Shown here one piece after another: positions 30,917 through 49,063 of a stretch of DNA of 60,967 bases. Under the pieces are notes generated by a model that was given only the letters and a program-made list of their open reading frames with translations, did not search any database and was not told the DNA's origin. The stretch comes from a candidate division FCPU426 bacterium (GTDB lineage: Bacteria; Oederibacteriota; Muellerivitia; Muellerivitales; DAHXKG01). Within the stretch, counting starts at the first letter, position 1. Each line of letters begins with the position of its first letter. The stretch lies in assembly GCA_027366525.1 (NCBI GenBank), contig DAHXKG010000011.1, positions 1 through 60,967 of the forward strand, given 5' to 3'. Made by a program: the position numbers and the translations under genes.

Positions 30917-31963
30917 CTAGTGTGGAAGTATCGCTTTATTGGGGCCATTGCCTAATGAGTCAGTTAATAAGTTTTCAACTTTTCCTAATAATTCCAAGTC
31001 GGTCAAAGCATGCTTGGGAAATGATGAGGCACTAATATTTAAATAAATTTCTTGTGATTTAAAAATAGATTTGAATAATTTAAAAATACGCTTAACAATA
31101 ATTTCATATGTATGATTATCCGTATCGGGTAAAATCAATGCGTATTTATCCATTGCTATCCGGCAAATGATATCAATGCGTCTAAGACTAGTCATGAGAA
31201 TTTTTGAAATTTGTTTTGCAATCTCTTCTTCATTAGCCAATTGCGGACTATGAATTTGAAGTAAAATAAGACTTACCGATCTTGAAAATCGTTTCCCTCT
31301 TTCAACTTCTTCTGCCAGTCTTTCTTTAAAATAATCAAGGTTATACAATCGAGTAATTTCATCCACCAAAATCAAAGATCGCTGTTTTGAATTCGTTTCA
31401 TTCGATTTTAAATGCTTTGCTTCTTTTAAATTAGCTTTTAACTCATTCGATTCTAATTCTTTTTGAATCTTTTCTTTAAATTCAATTAAAAAATTGGCGA
31501 GATTCATTTCCCAATTTTTAAAAACCCGAGATATTTCATCCAAGGTTTGAGGCAAATATTTTTTTGAAAATTGATCCACTAATCCCAAAATAATATAAAT
31601 ATTTTCATTGATACTAGAAGCTAAAAAAATCCCACTTGAGGGATTCTGCATTTTAAGTGTACCGTGCGGGGAAAATTGTGGTTTATCCGTTATATCCAAA
31701 AAAAATTTCAACGATATTTTTTTCAATGCTTGTCGTTCTTCATATCCTAGACGATCCAAACTCTTCTTTAAAAGTTCGTTTTTACCTATGCAACTTAAAA
31801 TTTTCGGTTCACTCTCGGATGAATCAGATATCAACAAAAAAACAAGATCCGTTGAAAAGGCAGATTTTATTGCATTTAAACAAGCCTCAATAGCCAAAAG
31901 TACATTTTGATTCGTTTGATATTGCTGAAACATTTTCTCAGATAAATTAATATTTGTGGTCAT
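30917..31963 (-). CDS. GAF-like sensor with degenerate GGDEF domain
   Basis: The N-terminal ~165 residues look like a GAF-type sensory fold (L-A-I-E-A-C-L-N-A-I-K-S-A-F near the start; G-I-F-L-A-S-S-I-N-E). A coiled-coil linker (K-E-K-I-Q-K-E-L-E-S-N-E-L-K-A-N) leads to a GGDEF fold (Y-N-L-D-Y-F-K-E-R-L-A-E-E; R-R-I-D-I-I-C-R-I-A). At the active site A-M-D-K-Y replaces G-G-D-E-F, so diguanylate cyclase activity is unlikely; a scaffold or receptor role is inferred. The start is put at ATG 31963; a TTG at 31981 would overlap the FtsA-like gene. Last gene of the chemosensory block. Confidence 0.75.
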   Translation of the reverse strand: MTTNINLSEKMFQQYQTNQNVLLAIEACLNAIKSAFSTDLVFLLISDSSESEPKILSCIGKNELLKKSLDRLGYEERQALKKISLKFFLDITDKPQFSPHGTLKMQNPSSGIFLASSINENIYIILGLVDQFSKKYLPQTLDEISRVFKNWEMNLANFLIEFKEKIQKELESNELKANLKEAKHLKSNETNSKQRSLILVDEITRLYNLDYFKERLAEEVERGKRFSRSVSLILLQIHSPQLANEEEIAKQISKILMTSLRRIDIICRIAMDKYALILPDTDNHTYEIIVKRIFKLFKSIFKSQEIYLNISASSFPKHALTDLELLGKVENLLTDSLGNGPNKAILPH

Positions 31964-31973
31964 AATTTTATCA

Positions 31974-34100
31974 TCACTCAAATTTAATTATTAACTCTGA
32001 TCCATTTCTCACTTCAGTTGTAAATCCTGCAGGTAAATTATCCACAAGAAGCTTTAATCGTTGGCTACTAGTCTCTGGTTTAGGTAGTTCCATTGCTGCT
32101 AGAATTGAAGAAACTGTACCCAAAGCAGTTTTCCCATCATAAGTTACTATATTCGCTTGATCAATAATAAATTCATCTAATGTAACCAATCGTCCATTCA
32201 TGTAAACTTTACCCAATTCACCCGTCAATGTAAACGGTTGCCCATTTACAAATACATGCAATGGTTGACCATTTTGGGGGGGATTAATAATATCGCGAAT
32301 ACGATATTGTGATTGAACTCGGGTTGAAAATTCAATGACATCATTTTTTTTTATTTCATATTCCAAACTTGTTTCTGTCCCGTTCACAGTTAACAAATAA
32401 GTTTTCTGTGTTAAAATCCTAGGTTCGCCATTAATTGATATCAAGATTTCTCGAGAAATCTCATTTGTTAAATCATATCCTTGACTTTCCAAAAAATCTT
32501 TTAATCGAATTGGAAAAAACGTTTTGATTTCGGCATTCGAGGGAATATAATCGTCAAAAGTAGATTTTTTTTCATTAATCCAAACTACCATCTGAACTTT
32601 TGTGGCCATCCCGTTTAAAAAACAAGGAATTTCAAAATCTTGTGTAAACATATTTTTAATCTGCAGAGATGCGGATGTTCCCGATTTAGGAGCAATGAAT
32701 TCAATTTCCGCGTCCGCTGGCAACAAACTACTCCAACTAACCATCTGCTGATTGATCTTAACTACAGCAGGAACGGCTAATTCACCTTTGACCACTTGCG
32801 TAATTCCATTTAATTTATAAATAAGATCTTTCCCATTTTCAACTTTATCATCTACCAGCTTTAAACCGAGTTGTGAAAACAATTCTAAAACCGACAATGT
32901 TTCTGATGAATACGCTAATGCACGTTCAATACCATTTAAAAAGTATCGATATATTTTTAACCCCTTTTGTCGAGCAGCAATCAACATAATTCCAGCTGGA
33001 GTTGCTCCCCAAGTTTCGGTTAAGCTATGGGTACGATCAATTAAATCCAAATTTTGATTTGGGCGTCTTGGACCAATGGATCGTTCACTCATGCTCATTT
33101 GAGTCGATAAACATTTGACTAAACCAATTAATTCACTACCGCCACCAACCAAAATTATTGCATCTGGTTTCCCATTATTCATTTCGATAATTTTATTCAT
33201 TAGTACTAGAGTAAACTCGTTTAAAAAATCCGTAATTAATCTTTCAAATTCCGCATATTCTATTGATAATGCTTTCCCAAATATATCCATGCTTTCTACT
33301 TTTTTTAATTCCACTTGGGAAAAGCTTTTTTTAATCTTTTCAGCTTGATTAAAATCGACTAACCAGTTTTTACAAATAAATTCAGAAATCTCGTCTCCTG
33401 CAATTGGAATCATTTCAAATCCAGAAATAGTTCCATCGTTAACAACAGCAAGATCCGATGTTCCCGCACCAATATCAATCAAAACCAAATTAAGCATGCG
33501 TAAATCGGGCGGAATAACCGCCTCTAGGGCTGCAATGGGTTCCAAGGTTAGTGAACTGATTTTTAATCCACTTTTAACAATAACTTGCCAAAGACTTTCA
33601 AATACCACTTTAGGAAGAAACGTGGCTAAAATTTCAATTTCCAAAACATTCCCAAAATGTCCTTCAATAGTTTTAAAAGGGATTTTATCTAATCGATAGG
33701 TACTTGGTGCATATCCTACACAGCAAAACTCTGTACCAATTTTTTCAACCGCATGCCGCAGTGCTAAACTTTCAACAAAAATCACATCGCTCTTAGCAAT
33801 TGGTGAGATGTTTGAAATGCGGGTCTCCGCCACTCCCGAAATAACTCGAAGTGATCTTCCAGCAGCAGCAATAGCAACTTCCTGAAGTGGCTCTCCAATT
33901 TTTTTTTCCAAGGCATGTGTAATTTCACGAACAATATTAGCCACACCTTCAATATCATGTACTTGTCCATCTAGCATAACTCTTTTGAGATGTTCTTGCG
34001 TTTCCGTTGCAATAATTTCCACACCCATTGCCGTTCGACGCCCTACTAATCCCATAACTTTTCGTGTCCCAATATCTAATCCATAAATCCACTCACTCAT
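31974..34100 (-). CDS. FtsA/PilM-superfamily actin-like ATPase with long C-terminal extension
   Basis: The first ~380 residues are an FtsA/PilM-type ATPase: G-L-D-I-G-T-R-K (7-14), an SHS2-like insert, D-I-G-A-G-T-S-D-L-A-V (phosphate 2) and I-I-L-V-G-G-G-S-E-L-I-G (adenosine motif). At 708 aa it is far longer than FtsA (~420) or PilM (~350). The extra ~320 residues hold repeated ubiquitin-like beta modules (I-S-I-N-G-E-P, L-T-V-N-G-T-E, V-F-V-N-G-Q-P, V-Y-M-N-G-R). Similar long FtsA-like proteins occur in some Firmicutes. It lies inside the che block between cheC and the GGDEF-like gene, so a role in positioning pili or the array is more likely than septation. Confidence 0.75.
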   Translation of the reverse strand: MSEWIYGLDIGTRKVMGLVGRRTAMGVEIIATETQEHLKRVMLDGQVHDIEGVANIVREITHALEKKIGEPLQEVAIAAAGRSLRVISGVAETRISNISPIAKSDVIFVESLALRHAVEKIGTEFCCVGYAPSTYRLDKIPFKTIEGHFGNVLEIEILATFLPKVVFESLWQVIVKSGLKISSLTLEPIAALEAVIPPDLRMLNLVLIDIGAGTSDLAVVNDGTISGFEMIPIAGDEISEFICKNWLVDFNQAEKIKKSFSQVELKKVESMDIFGKALSIEYAEFERLITDFLNEFTLVLMNKIIEMNNGKPDAIILVGGGSELIGLVKCLSTQMSMSERSIGPRRPNQNLDLIDRTHSLTETWGATPAGIMLIAARQKGLKIYRYFLNGIERALAYSSETLSVLELFSQLGLKLVDDKVENGKDLIYKLNGITQVVKGELAVPAVVKINQQMVSWSSLLPADAEIEFIAPKSGTSASLQIKNMFTQDFEIPCFLNGMATKVQMVVWINEKKSTFDDYIPSNAEIKTFFPIRLKDFLESQGYDLTNEISREILISINGEPRILTQKTYLLTVNGTETSLEYEIKKNDVIEFSTRVQSQYRIRDIINPPQNGQPLHVFVNGQPFTLTGELGKVYMNGRLVTLDEFIIDQANIVTYDGKTALGTVSSILAAMELPKPETSSQRLKLLVDNLPAGFTTEVRNGSELIIKFE

Positions 34101-34114
34101 ATAATAAACTCGTA

Positions 34115-34729
34115 TTATTTGACTTTAATTGCTTGAAAAATTGCTTTTAATGATGCGGCATCTGGAATTAAAATAAAATAGCCATCGATAATTTCATTGA
34201 TATCAATAAATTTTGTTTCAATACAAATTACTTTATATGAATTCCCCATTTCGATCCCAACTGTTGATAACAATGCGCCTGCCATATCAAACACAAGTGA
34301 TGGTACAGAAATTAGCAAAAGCATTCCCAAAAATTCGTTTAACGCGCTTAAATAAGCACCTATTAATATATTTCCAGCTTCCTTAATAGCAGAATATCCT
34401 AATTCGGTTAATATCTTGTTGGTTCCTGGAGCCTGCTTCAATAAAAGATCTGCCATATGCAATGCAGAATCTCTTGGGAAAAGAAGAAAAATTTTCCCAG
34501 TAGCATCTCCAAGAATCGATAATGACAGTCCAGCAACTAAAGTATTTGGATTCCCTAACAACTGTGGAATTTGATCTACTGTTAAAATATTGGCTTTTGG
34601 GACAGTAATGGTTACCTTTTTTCCAAGGAGTTGCGAGAGTGCCGTAGCTCCATGGCCTGCTCCAATGTTACCCACTTCTTTCAGTGCATCAATTTGTTCT
34701 AGCGATAATTCATCAATAATATTAATCAT
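34115..34729 (-). CDS. cheC: CheC-family CheY-P phosphatase (copy 1)
   Basis: 204 residues with the two pseudo-repeats typical of CheC. Site 1 reads L-K-E-V-G-N-I-G-A-G-H-G-A-T-A-L-S and site 2 I-K-E-A-G-N-I-L-I-G-A-Y-L-S-A-L, each keeping the E-x-x-N pair that removes phosphate from CheY-P. It is 18 nt after cheA. A second cheC lies at 39284-39922. Confidence 0.93.
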   Translation of the reverse strand: MINIIDELSLEQIDALKEVGNIGAGHGATALSQLLGKKVTITVPKANILTVDQIPQLLGNPNTLVAGLSLSILGDATGKIFLLFPRDSALHMADLLLKQAPGTNKILTELGYSAIKEAGNILIGAYLSALNEFLGMLLLISVPSLVFDMAGALLSTVGIEMGNSYKVICIETKFIDINEIIDGYFILIPDAASLKAIFQAIKVK

Positions 34730-34747: not shown

Positions 34748-36796
34748 CTAATCTTCCTCATTCTTCAAAACACCTTTCAACTGTGACGTCTTCAAACTAT
34801 CCAATAGCCCTAAAATATCTAAAACAAAAGCAATTTGTCCATTCCCAAGTATTGTAGCACCAGCAAGCCCTTTCAGCTCTTTTAAAAATGCTTCTAATGG
34901 TTTAATGGCTATATCGATCTGATTTACAACCTCGTCAACAATAAGTGCTAACTTGGCATCTCCAATCTCTAATATCAAAATAGTTGATAACTCCGGATTG
35001 ATGTAAGCATTATCGGAGAACTCCAGTAATTCACGTAAATTATATAATGGCAAAATTTCATTGCGATGTACAATTGTAGGACGTTGTTGAAGAACTTTGG
35101 GCGCGACTGTCAAAACATCCAGGGTTTCAATTACATTTCCAATGGGGATAGCAAAGATATGATTATTACAGCGAATTATAAGAGCTTTAATAATCGCCAT
35201 TGTGAGTGGAAATCGAAAAATAAATGTTGTTCCCTTCCCTTTCCAACTTTGAATTTTAAAATTTCCACCTAAGGATTCAACTTTAGTTTTTGCAATATCA
35301 ACCCCCACGCCTCTTCCAGAAATTTCATTGGCCTTTTCTCGCGTTGTAAATCCTGGAAGCGCTATCAGATTAATAATATCATTATTAGACATATGGCTTA
35401 TTTCATCTAATGTCACTAATTTTTTTTCTAAAGCCTTTTGTTTTATTAATTCAACATCCAATCCTTGGCCATCATCTGTAACAGAAATGGATATAAAACT
35501 TTTTTCACGTTTTGCTTCTAATTGGATTAAACCGACAGGAGATTTTCCAAATGCCAAGCGATCTTTAGAATTTTCAATGCCATGGTCAATTGCATTTCTC
35601 ACCAGGTGATTTAATGGTTCCCCAATTTCGTCAACAATCGTTCGATCGATTTCAACGGATGAATCATTAATTTCAAGAGATACGTCTTTATTTAATTGTT
35701 TAGACAAATCTCGAACAATTCGAGGGAATCGATCAAAAACTTGTTTTATGGGAATTAAACGAATCTGCATCACTTCACCTTGTAATTGTTCCAACGTTCT
35801 CCGAAAGTGTCTTAAAGATTCTAATAAGCTATCATCAACATAAGAGCTTAATATCTGATCAAGATTAACTTTTATTATCATCAACTCTTGAATTAAATTC
35901 ATTAATCGATCTAATTTATCGGATTTAATTCGAACAATGGATGAAAAGGTATCTTTGGACACTTTAGGAGCAGGCACAATTTTTAAATTCTTGTCCTCGG
36001 TATTTTTAAGTGCATCTGCTGATGTAGCTACTTCATCTGTATTTACATGATATCTATTATCTTGCCATCCCTTAATTTGAACATTTTTAACTTCCGAAAT
36101 GCTCATGATTTTTTTTTGGATCCAATCTGCATTTTCTTTTGAAATAACAATATGTGTCAGTTCATTTCCTAGTACAACCTCTTGACTGTTTGGATAGGAC
36201 TTAACAACTTTCCCAATTTCATTAAGCGTTTTAGAAATCATGTAAATACGCGCTTCTTTAAATATACACACTTCGTCCAATTGTGTACTTATTTCCCAAA
36301 CAAAATACCCATTTTGCTTTGAATCAGCAATAAATTGTATTTCTTCATCGTTTAATTGGAAATTTAAATCATTCCGATTGGATTCTTTAATTTCATTTTG
36401 AGAAACTACTGCGATGGGTTTTTCGTAATTTATAAGAGCATCAATTAAATAACTCAAATTTTCGTCTTCAATTTCATTATTTAAATTCAATTGTTGAATC
36501 CATTTTTCCAATTGATCTAAGCACAATAGAAGCACATCAATTAACTGAGATGTAAGTATTGTTTGGCCTGATCGAATGGGTTCTAGTACACTTTCCATTT
36601 GATGGGTCAATTTAGCAATGGCATCATACCCCATCGTTGCAGACATTCCCTTTAATGTATGCGTCGCTCGAAATATTTCATTAATTGAATCCGGTGATTT
36701 TGGATTTTTCTCTAAAAGCAACAGTGCATTGCCTAGAATCGAAAGATATTCCTGAGACTCCGCAATAAAAACAGATTGATATTCTTTTAAGTTCAT
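34748..36796 (-). CDS. cheA: Chemotaxis histidine kinase CheA
   Basis: A 682-residue CheA. P1 Hpt domain at 1-105 with phospho-accepting H46 (R-A-T-H-T-L-K-G). A P2-like, poorly conserved region lies at ~145-265, followed by P3 dimerisation (~295-345), P4 kinase (N box H-L-V-R-N-A-I-D-H-G; G1 D-D-G-Q-G-L; G2 G-R-G-V-G-V-D) and P5 CheW-like coupling domain (from ~530). All catalytic motifs look intact, with only one Hpt, unlike Pseudomonas ChpA of the type IV pilus system. It follows cheB by 28 nt. Confidence 0.97.
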   Translation of the reverse strand: MNLKEYQSVFIAESQEYLSILGNALLLLEKNPKSPDSINEIFRATHTLKGMSATMGYDAIAKLTHQMESVLEPIRSGQTILTSQLIDVLLLCLDQLEKWIQQLNLNNEIEDENLSYLIDALINYEKPIAVVSQNEIKESNRNDLNFQLNDEEIQFIADSKQNGYFVWEISTQLDEVCIFKEARIYMISKTLNEIGKVVKSYPNSQEVVLGNELTHIVISKENADWIQKKIMSISEVKNVQIKGWQDNRYHVNTDEVATSADALKNTEDKNLKIVPAPKVSKDTFSSIVRIKSDKLDRLMNLIQELMIIKVNLDQILSSYVDDSLLESLRHFRRTLEQLQGEVMQIRLIPIKQVFDRFPRIVRDLSKQLNKDVSLEINDSSVEIDRTIVDEIGEPLNHLVRNAIDHGIENSKDRLAFGKSPVGLIQLEAKREKSFISISVTDDGQGLDVELIKQKALEKKLVTLDEISHMSNNDIINLIALPGFTTREKANEISGRGVGVDIAKTKVESLGGNFKIQSWKGKGTTFIFRFPLTMAIIKALIIRCNNHIFAIPIGNVIETLDVLTVAPKVLQQRPTIVHRNEILPLYNLRELLEFSDNAYINPELSTILILEIGDAKLALIVDEVVNQIDIAIKPLEAFLKELKGLAGATILGNGQIAFVLDILGLLDSLKTSQLKGVLKNEED

Positions 36797-36824: not shown

Positions 36825-37874
36825 TTAGTCGCATTTATTCTTTATAATCCTAACAATCTTATCGGCCATCTGCGGAATTGTCTCTTGAAAATCAACTACC
36901 TTTGATTCAACGGCAGAACGCGGCATACCATAGACAATGCAACTAGCCGCATCTTGAGCAAATGTGATACCTCCGCCTGCCTTGATATATTTAAGGCCCA
37001 GAGTCCCATCTTTTCCCATACCAGTTAAAACTACCCCAATCAATGTTGACTGAACATTTTGAGCAACTGATTTCATTAAAATATCTATGGCTGGTTTTAC
37101 ACCTAAATACGTCTCCCCATCCTCTAAACCAACTTTATATTTCTCATTACTTTTTTTTAAAACCATGTGCTTGCCACCAGTTGCTAAATATCCACAATTC
37201 TGGTAAATAGAAGTTTCATGAATAACCTCTTGAATAGGAATTTGACTAATTGAAGATAAATGTTTGGCCAAAGCTGCTGTAAATCCGCTAGCCATGTGTT
37301 GCACAATTAGAAACGCTGCTCCAGAATCTTGGGGCAGATATGAAAACAATTCCATCAAAGTTCTAGGTCCTCCTGTTGATGCTCCAATAACTACAATATA
37401 TGAAGGGGGATTTTTGGAAGTAGATAAAGTTGATTGAAAACTTGAAGTTCCCCTATTATGTTGGGAAATTGATTTAACAAAAATTTGAGATGCTGTTTTT
37501 ACTTTATCAATTAACTCTTGTTGAATTTTAGACATATCATCCCAAAGTTGCGATCGAGGCTTTTCAATATTATCTACTGCGCCCAATTCAAATGCTTGTA
37601 TAGTAATTTGGGCTTCATTAGCAGTATGTGAAGATACCATAATAACAGGAGTAGGATATTTTTCCATAATTTCGCGAAGTGTAGCCAAACCATCCAAAAT
37701 AGGCATTTCAACATCTAATGTAATGACATCTGGTTTTAATTTTTTTAATTTTTCAATAGCTTCTAATCCGTTTTGAGCAGTTCCAACGACTTTAATTTCA
37801 TCAGACGTTAAGATATTTGATATTAATTTCCTCATAAAAAAAGAATCGTCCACAACCAAAACACGAATTGCCAT
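36825..37874 (-). CDS. cheB: Chemotaxis response regulator methylesterase CheB
   Basis: 349 residues. Receiver domain with D54 (L-D-V-E-M-P) and the acidic pair at 9-10, a linker, then the methylesterase domain with the triad S166 (G-A-S-T-G-G-P), H193 (V-Q-H-M) and D289 (G-M-G-K-D-G). It removes methyl groups (or deamidates) on receptors, implying MCPs elsewhere in the genome. Confidence 0.97.
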   Translation of the reverse strand: MAIRVLVVDDSFFMRKLISNILTSDEIKVVGTAQNGLEAIEKLKKLKPDVITLDVEMPILDGLATLREIMEKYPTPVIMVSSHTANEAQITIQAFELGAVDNIEKPRSQLWDDMSKIQQELIDKVKTASQIFVKSISQHNRGTSSFQSTLSTSKNPPSYIVVIGASTGGPRTLMELFSYLPQDSGAAFLIVQHMASGFTAALAKHLSSISQIPIQEVIHETSIYQNCGYLATGGKHMVLKKSNEKYKVGLEDGETYLGVKPAIDILMKSVAQNVQSTLIGVVLTGMGKDGTLGLKYIKAGGGITFAQDAASCIVYGMPRSAVESKVVDFQETIPQMADKIVRIIKNKCD

Positions 37875-37930: not shown

Positions 37931-38293
37931 TCACTCAAATACTCTTTTCAATGCTTCCTGTACTCTAATAGGTTGGAATGGCTTAATAATAAAATCACGT
38001 GCTCCAGCTTGAATTGCTTCAATTACCATCGATTGCTGTCCCATAGCCGACACCATTACAATTTTAGCATTAGAATCCAACTCGCGAATTAATTTAACTG
38101 CTTCAATTCCGTTCATAACCGGCATAATAATATCCATGGTTATTAAATCCGGCTTTAATTCCTGAAATAATTCAACCGCCTCTTGTCCATTGGTGGCTTC
38201 TCCAACTAAAACAATTTCATCTTTAATAATAATATTCTTCAAAAGAACTCTCATAAACGATGAGTCATCAACAATCAGTACCCGCATTGCCAT
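37931..38293 (-). CDS. cheY: Response regulator CheY (copy 1)
   Basis: A stand-alone 120-residue receiver with D9/D10, phospho-acceptor D54 (M-D-I-I-M-P), S82 and K104 (I-I-K-P-F-Q-P). It is nearly the same length and closely similar to the second copy at 39927-40292, with the shared M-G-Q-Q-x-x-V-x-E-A-I-Q-A-G-A motif. It is between cheW and cheB. Confidence 0.95.
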   Translation of the reverse strand: MAMRVLIVDDSSFMRVLLKNIIIKDEIVLVGEATNGQEAVELFQELKPDLITMDIIMPVMNGIEAVKLIRELDSNAKIVMVSAMGQQSMVIEAIQAGARDFIIKPFQPIRVQEALKRVFE

Positions 38294-38327: not shown

Positions 38328-38789
38328 TCATTTTTCATAGAAGTCCAAAAGTTTTTCAAAATTGAGAACAAATATTCTCCGGTTGGTTTTTTCAATAACA
38401 CCTGTTAAATATGGTTTCCAAATTGGAATAATAATTTCATCATTAAACTGAACTTCAATTTTTAATTCCTTAGCAACTTCAATAACGCGATCCACTAAAA
38501 AACCGATCAATTGACTTTTTATTTCTATTACAATAATTCGAGTTTTAGAATCCGTGTCCTCATTTTCTAATCCTAATTTTTGTTTCAAGTTAATAATAGG
38601 AAGAATTTTACCACGAAAATTACTAACTCCTTTTAAAAACTTTGGGGTTTTTGGGATAGGCGTTATTGCCGGCACACGAATAATTTCACGAATTAATTCA
38701 ATCTCAAATCCGAACTCATACGTGGATAAATTAAAAATTAATAAATCACAGGTTTGAGAATAAACATCATTCGAAAATTCTGTAGTCAT
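38328..38789 (-). CDS. cheW: Chemotaxis coupling protein CheW
   Basis: 153 residues with the CheW fold: F-G-F-E-I-E-L-I-R-E-I-I-R-V at the N-terminal third, F-L-K-G-V-S-N-F-R-G-K-I-L-P-I-I-N-L-K in the middle and V-D-R-V-I-E-V at the C-terminal third. It connects receptors to CheA. One of three CheW-type modules in this cluster. Confidence 0.94.
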   Translation of the reverse strand: MTTEFSNDVYSQTCDLLIFNLSTYEFGFEIELIREIIRVPAITPIPKTPKFLKGVSNFRGKILPIINLKQKLGLENEDTDSKTRIIVIEIKSQLIGFLVDRVIEVAKELKIEVQFNDEIIIPIWKPYLTGVIEKTNRRIFVLNFEKLLDFYEK

Positions 38790-38802: not shown

Positions 38803-39297
38803 TCAAATGTATTTTTCTAATTTATTAACCGTTTTAACTTGAACAAGTCCAGTATCCAGAAAAAAAGCAATCGTTCTTCCATGCTCCCCACCTGTATCCT
38901 CCGCAACAATTGGAATATCATATTTTTTAATTTTTTCGTGTGATGCTTGAATATTTCTAAATCCAACTGTTTCCAAATTATCACTTTTTTGTAAATTGCC
39001 AAACATATTAGAACCACCAATAATTTTAGCAACCAATCGATTGATTTGAACACCCTCGGTCAACTGAATTTTTTCCAGAACATCTTCAACAGATGTATCC
39101 ACATATTTCATACGCAATTGCGGGTTGGAGTCGACTCGATAATAAGGTAACATCGCATGAAGGAGTGCTCCGATTTTGGTGGTCGGATCATAAAATGTAA
39201 TTGCTACACAAGATCCCAGACCTCTTGCTAATAATCGATTGGGGCTTTTAGCAATTTGATATTCGGCAATTTTCACTACATAATCAGTTGTGTCCAT
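38803..39297 (-). CDS. cheD: Chemoreceptor glutamine deamidase CheD
   Basis: 164 residues with the catalytic pair C30 (L-G-S-C-V-A-I) and H47 (A-L-L-H-A-M-L-P) followed by Y-V-D-T-S-V. CheD deamidates receptor glutamines and partners with CheC to tune CheY-P removal. It overlaps the upstream cheC copy by 14 nt, matching that partnership. Confidence 0.95.
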   Translation of the reverse strand: MDTTDYVVKIAEYQIAKSPNRLLARGLGSCVAITFYDPTTKIGALLHAMLPYYRVDSNPQLRMKYVDTSVEDVLEKIQLTEGVQINRLVAKIIGGSNMFGNLQKSDNLETVGFRNIQASHEKIKKYDIPIVAEDTGGEHGRTIAFFLDTGLVQVKTVNKLEKYI

Positions 39298-39922
39298 TTT
39301 TTTTCAATACTGCATCTAATTTATTAATTAAATTAATCAATCCATCCTTATTTGGGATAAAATAAAACTTTATATTAAAACTTTTTTGAATAATTTTTAA
39401 TTGACTTTCAATTAAAAGTCCCATACTTTCTTGATAATCTAAATCCGTAATTAAACTTTCCAACAAAGCATCTTCCATGTCAAACTTCAATTGCGAAACA
39501 CTATGTAGGATTTTAATATTCAAAAAATTCGAAAGGGCTCTTAAATAAGCTCCTGTTAAAATATTTCCGATTTCTTGAAGTGCTGATTTTTGCAATTCCG
39601 ATAAATTTTGCGGATTTTCTGGAGAAACCTTTAAAAAGGTTTGAATAAACTCAGAAAGCGCATTCAGTGGGAAAAAGATTAAGGTTGTTCCATTCAACTC
39701 ACCACTCATGGAAAAAAATAATGAAGCTACTGTCTGAGAATTAACCATTGGAAATTCCGACGACGAATTTAACGGAAAAATAATTAACTTGGGGATTGAT
39801 AAATCAACCGTCAATTGAATCATCTGTGAAAGTGCCGTTGCAGCATGCCCAGCCCCAATATTACCAATTTCTTTAAATGCATCTAAGTATTCCGCTGGGA
39901 TCGTTTTATCTTTCGGATACAT
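39284..39922 (-). CDS. cheC: CheC-family CheY-P phosphatase (copy 2)
   Basis: 212 residues with both CheC half-sites, F-K-E-I-G-N-I-G-A-G-H-A-A-T-A-L-S and L-Q-E-I-G-N-I-L-T-G-A-Y-L-R-A-L. It overlaps cheD by 14 nt and follows a cheY by 4 nt. Sequence similarity to copy 1 is clear only at the motifs, so the two are probably old paralogues. Confidence 0.92.
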   Translation of the reverse strand: MYPKDKTIPAEYLDAFKEIGNIGAGHAATALSQMIQLTVDLSIPKLIIFPLNSSSEFPMVNSQTVASLFFSMSGELNGTTLIFFPLNALSEFIQTFLKVSPENPQNLSELQKSALQEIGNILTGAYLRALSNFLNIKILHSVSQLKFDMEDALLESLITDLDYQESMGLLIESQLKIIQKSFNIKFYFIPNKDGLINLINKLDAVLKKNGHN

Positions 39923-39926
39923 ATTT

Positions 39927-40292
39927 TTAACCTTCTAAAACTTTTTTCACAACATCAATGACATTAGCGGGCTGAAATGGTTTAATAATAAAATCTTTTG
40001 CCCCCGCTTGGATAGCTTCGACTACTAATGCCTGCTGTCCCATTGAACTACACATCAAGATTTTAGCTTGTGGTTGAATTTTCATTATTTCCCGCACACA
40101 ATCAATTCCGCCCATCTCAGGCATAATAATATCCATAATAACTAGATCAGGATGCGACCCGCTAAAAATTTCAAGTGCTTTTAATCCATTGTCCGCTTCT
40201 GCCACGACTTCATATCCAGCACCTAATAAAATGTTTTTTAAAATCATCCTCATAAAAGCAGCATCATCAACCAACATAATTTTTTTTGCCAT
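39927..40292 (-). CDS. cheY: Response regulator CheY (copy 2)
   Basis: A 121-residue receiver with D9/D10, D54 (M-D-I-I-M-P), S82 and K104. The start is ATG 40292 (MAKKIMLVDD), preceded by GAGGAG; a longer upstream frame adds only eight non-conserved residues. It is 4 nt before cheC copy 2 and 33 nt after the PII gene. Confidence 0.95.
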   Translation of the reverse strand: MAKKIMLVDDAAFMRMILKNILLGAGYEVVAEADNGLKALEIFSGSHPDLVIMDIIMPEMGGIDCVREIMKIQPQAKILMCSSMGQQALVVEAIQAGAKDFIIKPFQPANVIDVVKKVLEG

Positions 40293-40325
40293 TTGATTCT
40301 CCTCAAAATAAATCAAGCTATCGAA

Positions 40326-40667
40326 TTAGGATAATGCACTTTCACCATGCTCTCCGGTACGAACGCGTATAGCATCCTCTAGCGGAAGAACAAAAATCTT
40401 CCCATCGCCAACTCGCCCAGTTCTCAAAACCTCCATGAGCAAATTTATTGTCGAAAAAAGTTCTTCATCTAAAAGAGCAATTTCAAGTCTATGTCTAGGT
40501 TGGAATTGAACTTTATAATCATTTCCTTGAATGGAAGCCACTTGAACTTTTTGATATCCATACCCCTCTGCTTGTGAAATAGTAACACCGCGAATCCCAG
40601 CATCCCAAAGCATCTTTTTTACTTGCTCTATTTTTTTGGGAGAAATAAAACATATTAATAATTTCAT
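40326..40667 (-). CDS. PII-family signal protein
   Basis: A 113-residue GlnB-type PII protein. Landmarks fall at exactly canonical numbers: Q39-K40, T-loop Y51, K90 (G-D-G-K-I-F-V) and R101/R103 (I-R-V-R-T-G-E), so ATP/ADP and 2-oxoglutarate binding is plausible. The T-loop itself (V-Q-V-A-S-I-Q-G-N-D) departs from the usual G-H-T-E-x-Y-R-G-x-E, implying a different partner. There is no amtB, glnA or uridylyltransferase nearby. It is tucked between a large TPR gene (7 nt) and cheY (33 nt). Confidence 0.93.
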   Translation of the reverse strand: MKLLICFISPKKIEQVKKMLWDAGIRGVTISQAEGYGYQKVQVASIQGNDYKVQFQPRHRLEIALLDEELFSTINLLMEVLRTGRVGDGKIFVLPLEDAIRVRTGEHGESALS

Positions 40668-40674
40668 CGTGATC

Positions 40675-42891
40675 CTATTTTATTAGTTTCGATATCACTG
40701 CCGATGGAGAAATCTGCAATTGCTTCTTCCATTTCTTAATCACTTGAAGATTTTCACGTGCTTGAATCACCTTGTCTTCTTCTACTCCTTCTGTATTTAA
40801 GTATTTTTCAAACTCATTAACGGCCTCATCCCACCAGGATTTAGCTTGATAGACCTGACCCAAATAAAAATGAACTTCAGATAAATTTGGAGTAATAGTG
40901 ATGATTTTTTTAAATTCAACTAATGATTCATCCCACCAACGTCTTTTTAAATAAATTTCTCCCAATATTAAATGGACATCGGCAGCATTGCTATCTAAAT
41001 TTAAAGCCTTAATGGTTGTCTTAGTTGCCGAATCAAAATCATCATTTAATAAATATGTTTCCCCCAATTGCATCCATGCTTCTCTAAATTTAGGATCAAG
41101 GCGAACGGATTCATTGTACTCTCGAATTGCCTCTGAATATTGTTTTATATTTTTGTAAATACCACCTAAATCAAAGTGCAATTTAGGATTTTCTGGATCT
41201 GACATAATCTGTTTAATTAATGTTTCAATAGATTCTGTAACTGAAATCTTTTTTTTAAGAACAGCGGCAAGATTATTTTGAGCCGTTTTATAATCCGGTT
41301 CAATTTCCACCGCCCGCCTAAACGATTGAATGGCTTGATCGTACTTACCCAATTTAAAATACACTACGCCAAGATTATTGCAAGCTTTAGCATATTTAGG
41401 ATTTAACCGGATCGCCTCTAAATAATGAGAAACTGCCTCATTTAATAAACCGGCATTTTTATAAGCAACTCCTAAGCTATTATGAATAATTGGATTCGTC
41501 TTATCAAATTCCAGTGCCTTTTTATATTCATTTACTGCCTCTTCAAATCTACCTTTATCTGCCAATGCCAATCCTAGATAGATTAATGCCTCTGCACTTG
41601 AAGCAATGGAAGCATCCAATTCCATGGCATCTTTAATTTCTCGAATAGCCTCATCATATAAACTAATTTTATAATAATAAACACCGAGATAATAGTGAGC
41701 GGCAGAATTATGGGAATCAATTTCTAATGCTTTACGAATTTGATCCGTAGCTTTCTCTGCTTCGCCAATCTTAAAATAAGTCACACCCAATTCAAAACGA
41801 GCCGAACTTGACCCGGGAAGAATTTGAATTGCCTTGGAAAACTGGTCGACTGCCTCCGAATATTTTCCCTTTTCTCGAAATGAAATTCCGAGTTGAATAA
41901 AATGGTCGACTCCATTCGAGTTTAAAGAAATAGCTTTTTGAAAAACTCGTATTGCTTCGTCAACATTGCCCATCGCTAAGTAAGTTTCACCTAATCCAAG
42001 ATATAATTTATCTTCTTGAGGGAAAGCATCTAATGCACGTTTATATTCGCGAACTGCTTCATCAAATAATTTTTTATTTCTATAAACGACCGCTAAATTT
42101 ATAAAGGTATCTAATCCTGTCGTAGCCGTTTGCCGCGAAGTTTCTAATTGCCCAGCTATTTTTTCCTCTAGTGTTTTAGAACGATCGATTGTTAACAAAG
42201 ATTGAGTATTCGGGCCAAAATTAGGATTCAATTCAATTGAACGGTGCAGTGCTTCTTCAGCTTCTGTCAACATATTTTTGTCACCATAAACATAGCTAAG
42301 ATTATAAAAGGCCTTCGCATATTCAGGATTAATTGAAATAGCTTTTTTAAATTCTACCAATGCTTCATTTAGCAATCCTTTTTTATAATAAACTTCTCCT
42401 AAGTGGTTATGTAAATCAGAAAAATTTGGATTTTTTTCAATGATCTTCTTAAATTCATTAACTGAATCATCCAGACGGTCTTCATGCTTATAGCACAAGG
42501 CTAAATAATACATCCCCAAAATGTGATCTTGTTTAAGCTCAATACATTTTTGATATTCCAGAATCGCCTGTTTGTAATCGCCAATATAACGGTATGCATT
42601 TGCCAGATTATAGTGAGCTTCCGGATCCTGAGGAAAAAGTTGAATTGATTTTTTATATGCGTCAACTGTTCTCGTCAAAATACCAGTTTGTTGATTGATT
42701 GCGTTTAAATTCTCTTGGATTTGAATGCTATCTGAATCTATTTCTAACGCTGTTTTAAATTCTTTGACTGCTTCTTGATGCATACCTTTCGAATAATAAA
42801 ACATACCTAGATTGTTATGGGTAGAGGCATCCCCTTGATCATTTCCATTCGATATTTCACGTAAAGTTTTTATGTCAGCAGAATGTTCCAT
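40675..42891 (-). CDS. Large TPR-repeat protein
   Basis: 738 residues made almost wholly of ~20 tandem 34-residue TPR units (repeating N-L-G-x-x-Y, D-E-A-x-x-E-F-K-K-A-I-x-x-x-P). There is no signal peptide or membrane segment, so it is cytoplasmic. It is 7 nt before the PII gene and 8 nt after the MshEN-CheW gene. It probably scaffolds protein partners in the chemosensory/pilus block. Confidence 0.88.
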   Translation of the reverse strand: MEHSADIKTLREISNGNDQGDASTHNNLGMFYYSKGMHQEAVKEFKTALEIDSDSIQIQENLNAINQQTGILTRTVDAYKKSIQLFPQDPEAHYNLANAYRYIGDYKQAILEYQKCIELKQDHILGMYYLALCYKHEDRLDDSVNEFKKIIEKNPNFSDLHNHLGEVYYKKGLLNEALVEFKKAISINPEYAKAFYNLSYVYGDKNMLTEAEEALHRSIELNPNFGPNTQSLLTIDRSKTLEEKIAGQLETSRQTATTGLDTFINLAVVYRNKKLFDEAVREYKRALDAFPQEDKLYLGLGETYLAMGNVDEAIRVFQKAISLNSNGVDHFIQLGISFREKGKYSEAVDQFSKAIQILPGSSSARFELGVTYFKIGEAEKATDQIRKALEIDSHNSAAHYYLGVYYYKISLYDEAIREIKDAMELDASIASSAEALIYLGLALADKGRFEEAVNEYKKALEFDKTNPIIHNSLGVAYKNAGLLNEAVSHYLEAIRLNPKYAKACNNLGVVYFKLGKYDQAIQSFRRAVEIEPDYKTAQNNLAAVLKKKISVTESIETLIKQIMSDPENPKLHFDLGGIYKNIKQYSEAIREYNESVRLDPKFREAWMQLGETYLLNDDFDSATKTTIKALNLDSNAADVHLILGEIYLKRRWWDESLVEFKKIITITPNLSEVHFYLGQVYQAKSWWDEAVNEFEKYLNTEGVEEDKVIQARENLQVIKKWKKQLQISPSAVISKLIK

Positions 42892-42899
42892 ATTCCACT

Positions 42900-43514
42900 C
42901 TATACCCCATATAAAGGATTACTAATTTGTATTGGTAATAACTTATCAGGATTTATGATGGAATAAAATATATTTTTTGACTTTGCAATACAATAATATA
43001 GGTCACTTCTTTTACCAAAAAGAAATGGTGGAACAGGTTCAATTTCAGTTGTCTGGAATTTTTGAACATCAATTACTTTATCTACCCATACTGCGAACAG
43101 TTGATCTTGAAATGGGAATAAGATGAACCAAGTCATATTAAAATCACTATGAGGCGATAGATCTAAAATAGTTCTTAAAGATATGACCGGGATTGGTTCT
43201 CCACGCAAAGCAATCTCTCCAACAAAGGGGGATAATAAAGATGGCTTATATTCGATTGGGACATAATTCATCACCTCTTTAATTCGATACGTTTCTATGC
43301 CGAAAAATTCCTGATTGCATGAAAACGTTAACGTCAACATGCCTTTTAGAACTTCTAAAATATCGACTTCACGTACAAAACCCAATCGAATAACGATTTT
43401 CCCAAAAGGTTCGCGCGTAATTTTTTGCTCCCCTAAAACCATTTGAACTTGTTGCTCACTTAGTTTTCCAGCTTGCTTTAGTAATTCACCTAAAGTTTTT
43501 TCTTGAAAAGGCAT
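42900..43514 (-). CDS. MshEN-like domain fused to CheW
   Basis: Residues ~7-55 match half of an MshEN/T2SSE_N domain: T-L-G-E-L-L-K-Q-A-G-K-L-S-E-Q-Q-V then G-K-I-V-I-R-L-G-F-V-R-E-V-D-I-L. Residues ~60-204 are a CheW fold (F-F-G-I-E-T-Y-R-I-K-E-V, V-G-E-I-A-L-R-G-E-P-I-P-V-I-S-L-R, F-A-V-W-V-D-K-V-I-D-V). MshEN domains of pilus/secretion ATPases bind c-di-GMP; the key leading Arg of the R-L-G motif is Thr here, so binding is doubtful. The start is ATG 43514 (MPFQEKTL) with AAGAAAG upstream, 1 nt after the TPR stop. It could couple the pilus machinery to CheA. Confidence 0.75.
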   Translation of the reverse strand: MPFQEKTLGELLKQAGKLSEQQVQMVLGEQKITREPFGKIVIRLGFVREVDILEVLKGMLTLTFSCNQEFFGIETYRIKEVMNYVPIEYKPSLLSPFVGEIALRGEPIPVISLRTILDLSPHSDFNMTWFILFPFQDQLFAVWVDKVIDVQKFQTTEIEPVPPFLFGKRSDLYYCIAKSKNIFYSIINPDKLLPIQISNPLYGV

Positions 43515-43515
43515 A

Positions 43516-44688
43516 TTATCTTTCTTGAACAATTTTTAAATTTGATCTTAATATCTCATTATTGGGTTCCAGTTCCAGCGCTTTATTCCAATTAGCAATT
43601 GCCAAGTCTTTATCATGCCGTTTTAAAAAAATATTACCTAATTTTGCATAAGCATCTGCATGTTTTGAATCAATTTCTAATAATTCTTTGAATTCCACAA
43701 TTGATTCATCTAATCGTCCAGTTTTATAATAAAGGTTTGCCAGCGTATCTAAAATCATCAAATCTTTAGGTGTTATTTTTTTAGCCTTTTCATATTCTTG
43801 AATCGCTTTTTCCCATTCTCCTTGACGATCGTAAATATATCCTAAAACATTGTGTGCACTGCTATCATGTGGATTGATTTCCAATACCTTCTGATACATC
43901 TGAACCGCTTCATCATGTTGCCCTCGACTTGCATATAAATTTCCAAGTTTAAAAAAAACTTCAGGATTTTTTGGATTTTTCTCGAGTGCTTGATTCAAAA
44001 GTTCAAAGGCTTTGTCTAATTGTCCCAACGTCATGTACGCCTGTCCAAGTTTAATTGGAGTTTCCAAATCAAACGGATTTAAATTTAATGCCATTTCATA
44101 TGTTTGGATGGCCTCTGAAAAAGAACCTTTTTTTAAATACGCATTACCTAAAATTGAATAAATAGCTGCATGCTTAGGATTGATTTTGAGTGCCGTCTCA
44201 TAAGCCATAATCGCTTCATCTAACTGTCCTAATTGCTCAAATACAAAACCTGTTTTGAAATGAAACTCTGCATTATTAGAATTAATTTTCAAACAGATTT
44301 GATATTCTTGTAGCGCTTCTTGAAAACGTCCTACTTTTGAATACACATTACCTAAATTATTATGTAAACCAGCATCTTCAGAATTTAATTCGATTGATTT
44401 TTTAAATTCAAGAATAGCCGAATCATACTTGCCTTGAACTTCAAATAATAATCCCAATTTGCAGTGCGCATTAATATTTAATGCATTAATGGATAATGAT
44501 TTTAAATAATACTGTTCTGCTTCAGAATAATTCCCAATATTTGCGTAAATTGTTCCAAGGTGAGCAAGTACTTCGGCATCATTGGGATTTAAATCTAAAG
44601 CTTTTCGGAATTCCTGGATTGCATCATCATAGCGTTTCGAAATTAAAAAAGCCAATCCCAAGTTGATATGATCTTGAGCTTTTTCCAC
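43516..44688 (-). CDS. TPR-repeat protein
   Basis: 390 residues, about 11 continuous TPR units (G-x-x-x-x-x-x-x-R-Y-D-D-A-I-Q-E-F-R-K-A) and nothing else. Cytoplasmic, no signal peptide. It lies between cheR (15 nt) and the MshEN-CheW gene. CheR proteins are often fused to or paired with TPRs, so it may act with CheR. Confidence 0.88.
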   Translation of the reverse strand: MEKAQDHINLGLAFLISKRYDDAIQEFRKALDLNPNDAEVLAHLGTIYANIGNYSEAEQYYLKSLSINALNINAHCKLGLLFEVQGKYDSAILEFKKSIELNSEDAGLHNNLGNVYSKVGRFQEALQEYQICLKINSNNAEFHFKTGFVFEQLGQLDEAIMAYETALKINPKHAAIYSILGNAYLKKGSFSEAIQTYEMALNLNPFDLETPIKLGQAYMTLGQLDKAFELLNQALEKNPKNPEVFFKLGNLYASRGQHDEAVQMYQKVLEINPHDSSAHNVLGYIYDRQGEWEKAIQEYEKAKKITPKDLMILDTLANLYYKTGRLDESIVEFKELLEIDSKHADAYAKLGNIFLKRHDKDLAIANWNKALELEPNNEILRSNLKIVQER

Positions 44689-44703: not shown

Positions 44704-45519
44704 TTAATTTATCATTATGGTTTTCTGATACAAACGATTTGAAGTATCAATACATATAAATAATTGTCTCGCTGGACCCATCATAGTTTCAGTATTTCCA
44801 AGTACTAAAACTCCATTATCTTTTAAGCTCTCGTGCAATGCTTTAAACAGCCATTGTTGTTTATCTTGAGTTAAATAAATCAAAACATTTCTACATAATA
44901 TAAGATTATATGCATTGAGTTCAAAAACATTTAATGAAAATATATTTTGAATTTGAAATTCAACTCTGCGGGCTAGCTTAGGTAACACTTTTATTTTACC
45001 AGAACCGATTTCTTGAAACCAGTTTTGAATTTGAATTTTTGTTAAATTTCTAGTTGCAGAAAGCTGATATTCACCATTTAAAGCAAATTGAACGCTTTGT
45101 GGATCAATATCAATTGCATGCACTTTGAAAAATTTAAAATATTTTAAAGCCAGTATAGCAATTGAATAAGCCTCTTCTCCTGTACTACATCCCACAGATA
45201 AAATTTTAAAGTGATCGTTGCGTCCATCAGGTTTTAGAGAATTAAATACTAATGTTTCAATCGCGGTATATACAGACGGATCTCTAAAAAACTCAGTTAC
45301 ATGAATCGTTAAACGTTCGAATAAATGTTGGATCTCTTCAGAATCATTGAAGAGAATTTTTAAATAATCATTATAATGAGAAATCCCATATACTCGCATT
45401 CGAGCCATTACACGTCGTTGAATATATTTGGCTTTATAAAACTCGCCATTGAAATCTTTTTTAGCCAAAATAAAAGATAATATTTTTTGAAAAGCTTCTT
45501 GTTCTTCTTGTTCCACCAT
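44704..45519 (-). CDS. cheR: Chemotaxis protein methyltransferase CheR
   Basis: 271 residues. N-terminal helical domain and SAM-binding domain with S-V-G-C-S-T-G-E-E-A-Y-S-I and N-L-I-L-C-R-N-V-L-I-Y-L. It methylates receptor glutamates, opposing CheB. The start is ATG 45519 with AGGTG 6 nt upstream; a GTG three codons earlier is possible. No fused TPR, but a TPR gene follows directly. Confidence 0.95.
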   Translation of the reverse strand: MVEQEEQEAFQKILSFILAKKDFNGEFYKAKYIQRRVMARMRVYGISHYNDYLKILFNDSEEIQHLFERLTIHVTEFFRDPSVYTAIETLVFNSLKPDGRNDHFKILSVGCSTGEEAYSIAILALKYFKFFKVHAIDIDPQSVQFALNGEYQLSATRNLTKIQIQNWFQEIGSGKIKVLPKLARRVEFQIQNIFSLNVFELNAYNLILCRNVLIYLTQDKQQWLFKALHESLKDNGVLVLGNTETMMGPARQLFICIDTSNRLYQKTIMIN

Positions 45520-45551
45520 GAGATACACCTAAAATAAGCAAAAAACTATTC

Positions 45552-46759: not shown

Positions 46760-49063
46760 TTAACCGATTTTAGAAAAGATACCTTTTAAAAGACCTTTTT
46801 TATTTTTAGCTTCTTCAATACGTCTTTTCACTCGATCGTTCGATGCATCATATTCCAAAATTTTATTCCAAAACTGAATGGCTTTATCAAATTCATTTTT
46901 TTCGAATGCTTCTTTGCCTTTTTGATAATAATCATTGCTTAATTGCTCTATTTTCACTTTAAGAGCATCTAGTTGACGAACAGCATTAGGGTGTCCAGCA
47001 GAAATTTTTAAAACCTTATTAAATTCTTGTTGAGCCGATAGTAATTCATTGTGTTCCATTGCTTCCATGCCATTTTTGTAAATTTCTTCAATTTGTTGTT
47101 CAAGCATTGATGTCGACTTGACCAAATATGCTTCCAAATATGCATTGCCTGGAGCTTTTGAAATGGCTTTTTTAAAAAGTGTAATAGCCGATGTAAAATC
47201 ACTGTGAATATAACATTTAATTCCCTGTTCAAAAAGGCTGAAAATCGCATCCTTATCTTGATTTGTTTCAATACCGCTGATTTGAAATGATAAAAGTTTT
47301 TGTGTTCCCTGCTGTAAGTATTGTGCAACCTCTTCTAGTTCTGTATTGATTTCATACGCCTTTTGCCATGTTACTAACGCCCCTAATAAATCTCCAGATT
47401 GATAACATTCAATTGCTTTTTGATTTAATTCATTTGCGCGTTTTTTAAATTGCTGTTTTTGAATTGAATTTTTCAATTCTTTTTGAGCTGCTATCGCTTG
47501 TTCATTTTCAGAGTCAATAGCAAGTGCTTCGTTAATTTTTTCATATGCCTTTTCATATTCTGAATTATTTTGCAACTGGAGTGCTTGTTGAATATACTCG
47601 CGAGCCGCTACCTGATTTTCTAATTCCTTTTGTATGGTTTGAATATATGTTTCAATTTGTTTATTATTGGGATCAATTTCCAATCCTTTTTTCAATTCAA
47701 CAATAGCACTTTGTATCTTCCCTTCGCGATAAAATTGCAATCCGGCTTTTAAGTTAATAGATGCATCCTTTTTTCGATCACTTTGAGCATCTAATTTTCG
47801 AAGTTCTGCCATAAGCGCATTGGCTTCCGGATGATCTGGTTTTTCCTGCAATATGCGTTTAAGTTCAATACGCGCCTCATCATAACGCCGTTTATCATAA
47901 TATTCTTGAGCACGATGGAACCATGACGACATTCGTTCTTTTTGTTGAGACAATTCCATTTGTGTAATCAATGACTGAGCGGATGCACGTGAAGAAGATA
48001 TCCCTTTTAATCCAAGATCAATTTCACTTGGAGAAGTGGCCTGTTCCATAGCACTTTCTCGCGTAATCAGAGATTCTCGAACTAATTGAATTAATGATTG
48101 GTCAAACGTTTGCATACCATATTGACTCCCACCCTCAGCAATGAACCCTTTTATTGAAGAAATTTTCCCTTCAAAGATAAGCGATTTAATTGTTGGCGTA
48201 ACTATCATTATTTCACAAGCAGGAACTAATCCAATTTTATCAGTTTTTGAGACCAATCGTTGTGAAATCACCGCTTTTAATGTATTAGAAAGTTGAATAC
48301 GAATTTGGTTTTGCTGTTCTGGAGGGAAAAAGTCTAAAATTCTTTCAATGGTTTGTGTGGTATCCATCGTATGAAGTGTAGATAAAACTAAATGTCCAGT
48401 TTCTGCAGCCGTAATGGCCGCTTGCACTGTTTCCATATCTCGCATTTCACCAATTAAAATGACATCTGGATCCTGTCTTAAAACATATTTTAGTGCACTT
48501 TGAAATGATGCTGTATCAATTCCCACCTCGCGCTGTGATACACTAGATCTTTTATCCACATGAACAAACTCAATTGGATCTTCAATAGTAACAATATGAG
48601 CCGCTCGATTTTCATTCATTTCATTAATCATTGCTGCTAACGTAGTTGATTTACCTGATCCAGTAATACCAGTAACCAAGATCAATCCTCGTTGTTCTAG
48701 CGAAATTTGTTTCAATGCAGCTAACGGAAGATGAATGTCTTCTAATCGTGGAATTATCTGTGGAATTAGTCTCATAATAATTTCTGGTAGTCCACGCTGC
48801 CACATAACATTGCATCGAAAGCGTGCGATGCTTTCCAAGGAATACGCTAAGTCAATTTCATGATGATCCTCAAAAAATACTTTTTTTTGTTTGTCATCCA
48901 ATAATTGTGACACCACTTCGTAAACATTTTCAATCGTCAACAATTCCTCGGATTGAGGTCGTAAATCTCCGTCAACACGGAAAAGCGGTTTAGCACCCGC
49001 TTTAAAATGCAAATCCGATGCCTTGGACTCTACCATGCTATGCAATAATTGATTTAACTCCAT
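46760..49063 (-). CDS. PilT-type retraction ATPase fused to C-terminal TPR domain
   Basis: Residues 1-350 are a complete PilT: N-terminal S-D-L-H-F, Walker A G-I-T-G-S-G-K-S-T (132-140), Walker B with G-E-M-R-D (205-209), the H box S-T-L-H-T and the PilT-specific I-x-x-L-I-F-E-G-K...G-M-Q-T-F-D-Q-S-L segment. Residues ~380-760 carry about nine TPR or TPR-like repeats, giving 767 aa instead of ~350. PilT powers pilus retraction. AAGGTGG precedes the ATG. It is the first gene of the chemosensory block. No pilin or PilB gene is in the window. Confidence 0.9.
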   Translation of the reverse strand: MELNQLLHSMVESKASDLHFKAGAKPLFRVDGDLRPQSEELLTIENVYEVVSQLLDDKQKKVFFEDHHEIDLAYSLESIARFRCNVMWQRGLPEIIMRLIPQIIPRLEDIHLPLAALKQISLEQRGLILVTGITGSGKSTTLAAMINEMNENRAAHIVTIEDPIEFVHVDKRSSVSQREVGIDTASFQSALKYVLRQDPDVILIGEMRDMETVQAAITAAETGHLVLSTLHTMDTTQTIERILDFFPPEQQNQIRIQLSNTLKAVISQRLVSKTDKIGLVPACEIMIVTPTIKSLIFEGKISSIKGFIAEGGSQYGMQTFDQSLIQLVRESLITRESAMEQATSPSEIDLGLKGISSSRASAQSLITQMELSQQKERMSSWFHRAQEYYDKRRYDEARIELKRILQEKPDHPEANALMAELRKLDAQSDRKKDASINLKAGLQFYREGKIQSAIVELKKGLEIDPNNKQIETYIQTIQKELENQVAAREYIQQALQLQNNSEYEKAYEKINEALAIDSENEQAIAAQKELKNSIQKQQFKKRANELNQKAIECYQSGDLLGALVTWQKAYEINTELEEVAQYLQQGTQKLLSFQISGIETNQDKDAIFSLFEQGIKCYIHSDFTSAITLFKKAISKAPGNAYLEAYLVKSTSMLEQQIEEIYKNGMEAMEHNELLSAQQEFNKVLKISAGHPNAVRQLDALKVKIEQLSNDYYQKGKEAFEKNEFDKAIQFWNKILEYDASNDRVKRRIEEAKNKKGLLKGIFSKIG

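Follow-up and report, generated by a model that had tools for sequence, protein, structure and literature searches.

The 60,967-nucleotide stretch of DNA analysed here, which we call the window, carries a same-strand gene cluster running from position 49063 down to 30917, in which we found only che, TPR, pilT-like, pilM/ftsA-like and GGDEF genes and two small proteins whose roles are unassigned (Table 1). The order is PilT-type ATPase with TPRs, the two small proteins, CheR, TPR2, CheW2, TPR1, PII, CheY1, CheC1, CheD, CheW, CheY2, CheB, CheA, CheC2, FtsA/PilM-like ATPase and GGDEF protein; the PII gene sits mid-cluster between TPR1 and cheY1, inside one cheR-to-cheA operon. This gene content agrees with the original prediction that the neighbors are chemotaxis and not nitrogen genes. 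The names CheA, CheR, CheW2 and TPR come from Pfam, and CheC, CheD, CheY and CheB from sequence inspection and mutual similarity. Like other bacterial CheA-CheW-CheY-CheB-CheR-CheC-CheD systems, the cluster has the full core and adaptation enzyme set, to which it adds several near-constant parts: a pair of long TPR proteins, a CheW extended by an additional N-terminal domain, and the PII protein.

Table 1. Genes of the che cluster surrounding the PII gene (positions in the window).
Feature	Position	Strand	Evidence
PilT-type ATPase with C-terminal TPRs; upstream cluster end in families f1 and f2	46760..49063	-	T2SSE 6.2e-50 and TPR
CheR methyltransferase	44704..45528	-	PF01739 4.4e-40
TPR2, 390-aa TPR protein	43516..44688	-	Pfam
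CheW2: N-terminal domain of about 60 aa from an unnamed family, plus CheW domain	42900..43532	-	CheW 4.9e-16; alignment A1 of relatives
TPR1, 738-aa all-TPR protein	40675..42891	-	Pfam TPR 8e-108; directly upstream of PII in 26/26 genomes having TPR1
che-linked PII protein, 113 aa	40326..40667	-	PF00543 2e-21; PDB PII chains; AF2 model; orthologues in 27 genomes
CheY1 response regulator, next gene downstream of PII	39927..40316	-	Inspection: receiver domain, DD and D conserved; adjoins PII in relatives
CheC1, CheC/CheX-family protein	39284..39922	-	Similarity to CheC2; motif EIGNIGAGHAATALS
CheD deamidase	38803..39297	-	Sequence inspection; cluster-conserved in relatives
CheW	38328..38789	-	CheW part matched by model A1 at 5e-28
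CheY2 response regulator	37931..38293	-	Sequence inspection; conserved in relatives
CheB (receiver and methylesterase)	36825..37874	-	Sequence inspection; conserved in relatives
CheA (Hpt, P2, dimerisation, kinase and CheW domains)	34748..36796	-	Pfam; relatives known
CheC2	34115..34729	-	53-77% identity to relatives
FtsA/PilM-like actin-fold ATPase, 708 aa	31974..34100	-	FtsA 1.7e-12; PilM_2 1.4e-7
GGDEF-domain protein with degenerate signature (RIAMDKYALILP)	30917..31981	-	PF00990 4.6e-11

Several of the neighbors have features of their own. The PilT-type ATPase has a long C-terminal TPR region, and the protein is kept at 65-67% identity in families f1 and f2. The FtsA/PilM-like ATPase carries a long C-terminal extension with a weak ThiS-like match, and in many relatives it lies where the che cluster ends downstream. 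The open reading frame listed for CheY1 starts with TTG and has an in-frame ATG inside. The GGDEF-domain protein reads AMDKY in place of GGDEF and is probably not an active diguanylate cyclase, since its signature is degenerate. The N-terminal domain of CheW2 has the conserved pattern LGELLxQAG...LGKxLVRLGFV and no Pfam name; its identification as a c-di-GMP-binding MshEN/T2SSE_N domain finds no support in Pfam, which gives only weak matches to DUF4388 (in 11 of 18 relatives). The relatives listed for full-length CheW2 in a search of 289 genomes belong to this phylum only, with none from the out-of-phylum genomes among the matches listed.

The PII open reading frame begins with ATG and ends with TAA. 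Its product matches the PII family profile over positions 1-102 of 102 (76.7 bits against a cut-off of 25) and matches solved PII structures in the PDB with a best E-value of 1.8e-27. A single-chain AF2 model, with 27 relatives as input, has the PII fold (beta-alpha-beta twice) at a pLDDT of 84.7, with the T-loop block below the rest at 57; all 50 PDB matches listed for the model are PIIs at a Foldseek probability of 1.00, and structural alignments with known PIIs have roughly 33-42% identity. In E. coli GlnB numbering, which we use throughout, the T-loop comprises residues 37-55, the B-loop reads TGRVGDGK and the C-loop RVRTGE. The original prediction placed Q39, K40, Y51, K90, R101 and R103 at their textbook positions and described a T-loop lacking the usual E-x-Y-R-G-x-E segment, and alignment confirms both statements: the loop has normal length, but positions 41-51 read V-Q-V-A-S-I-Q-G-N-D-Y instead of the usual G-H-T-E-L-Y-R-G-A-E-Y, with E44, Y46, R47 and E50 gone (E50 replaced by D). 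Scores against the NCBIfam equivalog models fall below both cut-offs (91.8 bits against 181, and 78 against 202), a result of little weight because the models look narrow. Fold, length, B- and C-loops, nucleotide-binding residues and T-loop length are shared with the GlnB/GlnK family (PF00543; E. coli GlnB and GlnK, S. elongatus PII, A. brasilense GlnZ). By these features the predicted 113-residue protein is a true PII. It is not an ordinary GlnB or GlnK, as its phylogeny and surroundings show (see below).

Our conservation survey covered 45 genomes of the window's phylum, with G000 denoting the window's own genome. The original prediction proposed looking for other PII genes adjacent to che genes, and this search recovered the same PII (hereafter che-PII) at the same cluster position in 27 of the 45 genomes, spread over ten families; none of the 45 has a PII of the che clade without this che cluster. 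TPR1 has an orthologue in 26 genomes, in every one of which the PII gene comes directly after it, usually with CheY1 next. The TPR1 stop codon lies 7 bases ahead of the PII start codon in the window, and the two genes touch or overlap in several families, which suggests coupled translation. In G012, the 27th genome, TPR1 has been lost and PII is kept between CheW2 and CheY1; the T-loop of this PII is shortened, and its branch is longer than any other in the che-PII clade. Two genomes of family f3 keep PII and TPR1 without CheW2, a point against the reading that we prefer below. Neither TPR1 nor a che-type PII was found in G039 and G041, two genomes of one genus (family f14) that retain the rest of the che genes. 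Their cluster is split, with CheR-TPR2-CheW2 on one contig and CheY1 through CheA to PilM on another, both junctions lying inside contigs. TPR1 and PII were likely lost here, although these assemblies are 83-84% complete, a third locus could be missing from them, and a single genus represents one event at most. Outside the phylum we surveyed 80 named loci and the out-of-phylum genomes of the CheW2 search. Only one of the 80 loci, L137 from Planctomycetia, pairs a che cluster with an adjacent PII, and that PII follows amtB, identifying it as an ordinary glnK beside a che cluster.

In a tree of 149 PIIs, all 27 che-PIIs group in a single clade (SH-aLRT 91) that excludes E. coli GlnB and GlnK, the PIIs of other phyla and, from the same genomes, those that are amtB-linked, permease-fused or NifI-like; with about 100 columns, the tree does not settle the deeper order. 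We tested whether the altered T-loop produces this grouping artificially. Without the T-loop columns and the long G012 row, the free quick tree split the che-PIIs once, needing two changes to unite them, yet the one-clade tree had a likelihood slightly above that of the free tree and a single clade was not rejected (p-AU 0.54). The original prediction had named beforehand, as the finding that would count against it, a grouping with ordinary GlnB/GlnK and relatives beside amtB or glnA; what we found is a separate clade with che neighbors, and neither amtB nor glnA is close to any of its 27 members. Among the other PIIs, about half have amtB nearby, and the 94 other PIIs of the phylum have no true che neighbor. 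Eight other PIIs had apparent che neighbors, which proved to be CheY-like receiver domains only, probably of NtrC-type regulators. The window's genome encodes three further PIIs (one next to amtB, one at the C-terminal end of a permease that looks APC-type, and one near metH), so nitrogen-type PII capacity is present elsewhere in the cell.

These data bear on the possibility that the che-PII is an ordinary GlnB or GlnK whose position in a che operon is accidental and whose role is still the regulation of nitrogen metabolism. The full PII fold and length and the retained Y51 are what such a protein would have, but its separate clade, fixed synteny in ten families, altered T-loop and 2-oxoglutarate site (see below) and equivalog scores below both cut-offs are not, and the genome has three other PIIs, one of them amtB-linked, in a phylum where 94 other PIIs lack a real che neighbor. 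We therefore consider this explanation hardly credible. Between close che-PII relatives, dN/dS ranges between 0.014 and 0.07 (pairs with unsaturated dS), and synteny, clade and dN/dS together rule out a chance gene in the operon. The che-PIIs, one old clade, are tied to the che genes by conserved linkage and co-occurrence in 27 genomes of ten families, and a dedicated role linked to the che system is very probable.

In solved structures, PII proteins hold ATP and ADP through residues 29, 38, 39, 64, 87, 88, 90, 92, 101 and 103. Their contacts to 2-oxoglutarate are made by Mg on the Q39 side chain, by the main chain at residues 39 and 41, and by R9 and K58 through salt bridges (PMC8395244; PMC3198391). 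We scored 13 positions of the ATP/ADP site (T29, G35, G37, E62, T83, G84, G87-K90, F92, R101 and R103), all of which are kept in 24 of the 27 che-PIIs, the window's included, and 12 of which are kept in the other three. At the 2-oxoglutarate site, the combination of Q39, G41 and K58 is complete in 0/27 che-PIIs versus 114/122 other PIIs, and K58 alone is present in 8/27 versus 122/122, figures that we give as counts and without a probability because the rows are related sequences. Residue 9 is never K or R across the 27. Q39 occurs in 17 of them, with H39 accompanied by R58 or Q58 in f3 and most of f9, and E39 in f13. The window's PII, with S9, Q39, V41 and R58 and with K40 also kept, is among the milder cases; the original prediction did not mention its changes at residues 9, 41 and 58. 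Judged by residue conservation, the ATP/ADP site, which would lie between subunits of the predicted PII homotrimer, is intact across the clade and the 2-oxoglutarate site is altered. The expectation that effector binding should work thus stands for the ATP/ADP site residues and not for those of the 2-oxoglutarate site. Similarly, the idea that the protein reports ATP/2-oxoglutarate status to the che system is right about a specialized che-linked PII, but reporting of 2-oxoglutarate is doubtful because substitutions at the residues that bind it run through the whole clade.

Archaeoglobus fulgidus GlnK2 is a naturally occurring PII to which ATP/ADP bind and 2-oxoglutarate does not (PMC3198391), and the che-PII, as predicted from its sequence, would resemble it in this respect; GlnK2 differs in being a close orthologue of the Amt-regulating GlnK3 and has no che context described (PMC3198391). 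In cyanobacterial PII, 2-oxoglutarate no longer binds after the K58N substitution, whereas ATP still does and ADP binds more weakly (PMC6908673). The che-PII might nevertheless be a working sensor of both ATP and 2-oxoglutarate that conveys carbon/nitrogen status to the chemosensory system, with Arg58 replacing Lys58 and other contacts compensating at residues 9 and 41. Consistent with this, Q39 and K40 are kept in the window's protein and in those of f1 and f2, R58 is still basic, Q39 persists in 17/27 and Q9 is common among ordinary PIIs. However, not one of the 27 has the complete Q39, G41 and K58 set or a K or R at residue 9, H39 comes with R58 or Q58 in f3 and most of f9, f13 has E39, and Lys58 is otherwise invariant (122/122). 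We regard a functional 2-oxoglutarate sensor as unlikely.

Y51, the residue uridylylated in a GlnD cascade, is present in the window's PII and in 16/27 che-PIIs. A domain search found no GlnD/GlnE-type domain in the window's genome, which makes a uridylylation cascade there, and with it modification of Y51, unlikely. Compared with the GlnB/GlnK family, the che-PII stands apart in its own clade, in a T-loop without E44, Y46 and R47, in replaced residues 9, 41 and 58, in an arginine at B-loop position 85 (25/27 che-PIIs versus 7% elsewhere), in having che neighbors instead of amtB or glnA, and, by the domain search, in the absence of GlnD from the window's genome.

The T-loop of the che-PIIs is at least as conserved as the body of the protein within families and widely different between them, a pattern that would be expected of a docking element fitting one partner per lineage. 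These lineage-specific T-loops are under strong selection. In a mirror-tree comparison, T-loop distances correlated best with CheY1 (partial r 0.54, 0/300 permutations) and next with TPR1 (partial r 0.24), which is weak evidence since both are direct neighbors that share history or local linkage. Among the targets named by the original prediction, we infer that the TPR scaffold, TPR1, is the best-supported candidate partner because of its fixed adjacency to PII (26/26) and their joint absence from two genomes, with CheY1 second. PilT is an unlikely partner, as pilT adjoins the cluster in two of the ten families only. G012, which retains PII without TPR1, speaks against docking on TPR1. PII could instead act straight on CheY1 (or on CheC/CheD), for example by holding CheY-P or its phosphatase, leaving the TPR protein a mere neighbor. 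CheY1 is the next gene downstream, gives the best T-loop correlation, and in G012 lies side by side with PII where TPR1 is missing. Yet G039 and G041 retain CheY1 with neither PII nor TPR1, several families have PII and TPR1 genes that abut or overlap, and the shared history of neighboring genes makes the correlation a poor guide. We think it improbable that CheY1 is the direct target in this way, and TPR1 remains our first candidate.

The window's genome and most relatives have FliG, but our search found none in four f9 genomes with the che-PII, so an output through flagella only is not supported. The ends of the cluster carry PilT- and PilM-like genes, which makes type IV pili a candidate output. 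A system without MCPs was also rejected, since the window's genome has two MCPs and some clusters of relatives hold one; with these two MCPs, PII would add to receptor input and not replace it. PII could conceivably be aimed at the PilT-type ATPase, the PilM-like protein or the degenerate GGDEF protein, and so at pilus or c-di-GMP output. The PilT-TPR gene lies upstream in f1 and f2, A. brasilense GlnZ binds diguanylate cyclases (PMC7646526), and the che-PII is kept in the four f9 genomes where FliG was not found. However, PilT-TPR adjoins the cluster in f1 and f2 only, the CheA, CheC2 and PilM-like genes are on other contigs from PII in f3 and f9, and the GGDEF motif is degenerate, making such a target quite improbable. 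Separately, G001 (family f2, 99% complete) has FliG but lacks MCPs, a CheA of this kind and the che-PII, and is a case of a flagellar gene without this chemosensory system.

The reading we prefer, to which we give a probability of about one in two, is that the che-PII is a dedicated paralogue that senses ATP/ADP and docks on TPR1 (or CheY1) as a cytoplasmic energy input to the chemosensory system, the partner and the effect being inferred. ATP and ADP would bind the PII trimer in competition, and the exchange of one bound nucleotide for the other would set the shape of the T-loop. The T-loop would then dock on the TPR1 scaffold, encoded just upstream, or on CheY1, encoded just downstream, and the docked PII would shift CheA-CheY signaling. 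Energy charge would thereby act on movement from within the cell, in addition to the input of the few receptors, with flagella and/or type IV pili as the output. We hold more tentatively to a stricter form, which falls somewhat short of even odds, in which the trimer has given up 2-oxoglutarate sensing and become a soluble energy-charge receptor, which through a TPR scaffold sets CheA-CheY output by ATP/ADP and bypasses the methyl-accepting receptors. Against a response to ATP/ADP only, the window's protein keeps Q39 and K40 and has a mild change of K58 to R, and may here bind 2-oxoglutarate weakly; the weakened ADP binding of cyanobacterial K58N also counts against sensing of ATP/ADP.

PII proteins are among the most widespread signaling proteins, and with few exceptions they are linked to nitrogen, carbon or transport. 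For this family, a PII that is fixed in a che operon throughout a phylum and has both an altered effector site and a distinct T-loop would represent a new output; if the reading above is true, it would also provide a direct molecular route from the energy state of the cell to its movement. Energy taxis without a dedicated receptor could then be tested through a 113-residue protein and one named candidate partner. The open-licence full-text literature that we searched yielded no PII in a che operon. The nearest precedent found is A. brasilense GlnZ, a PII with an effect on motility: c-di-GMP enzymes are among its binding partners, and aerotaxis changes when it is lost (PMC7646526). GlnZ has many targets and serves nitrogen regulation in general, whereas the che-PII is encoded in, and conserved with, the che cluster. 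The PII-like protein BB0017 of Borrelia, returned by a text search, is unrelated.

Two further arrangements appeared among the other PIIs of the phylum. The permease-fused PII of the window's genome (G000:C29:123798-124133; L163:9796-11736, minus strand) is the C-terminal domain of a 646-aa permease that, read from its sequence, looks APC-type. Several more genomes of the phylum (G003, G004, G005, G012 and G016 among them) have PIIs that fall into its group in the tree and lie within open frames of 499-719 aa. At L181 (G004:C6, 2652-3866) and L229 (G007:C304, 383-1599), three consecutive PII genes lie beside a gene for a CheY-like receiver domain, which is probably an NtrC-type regulator.
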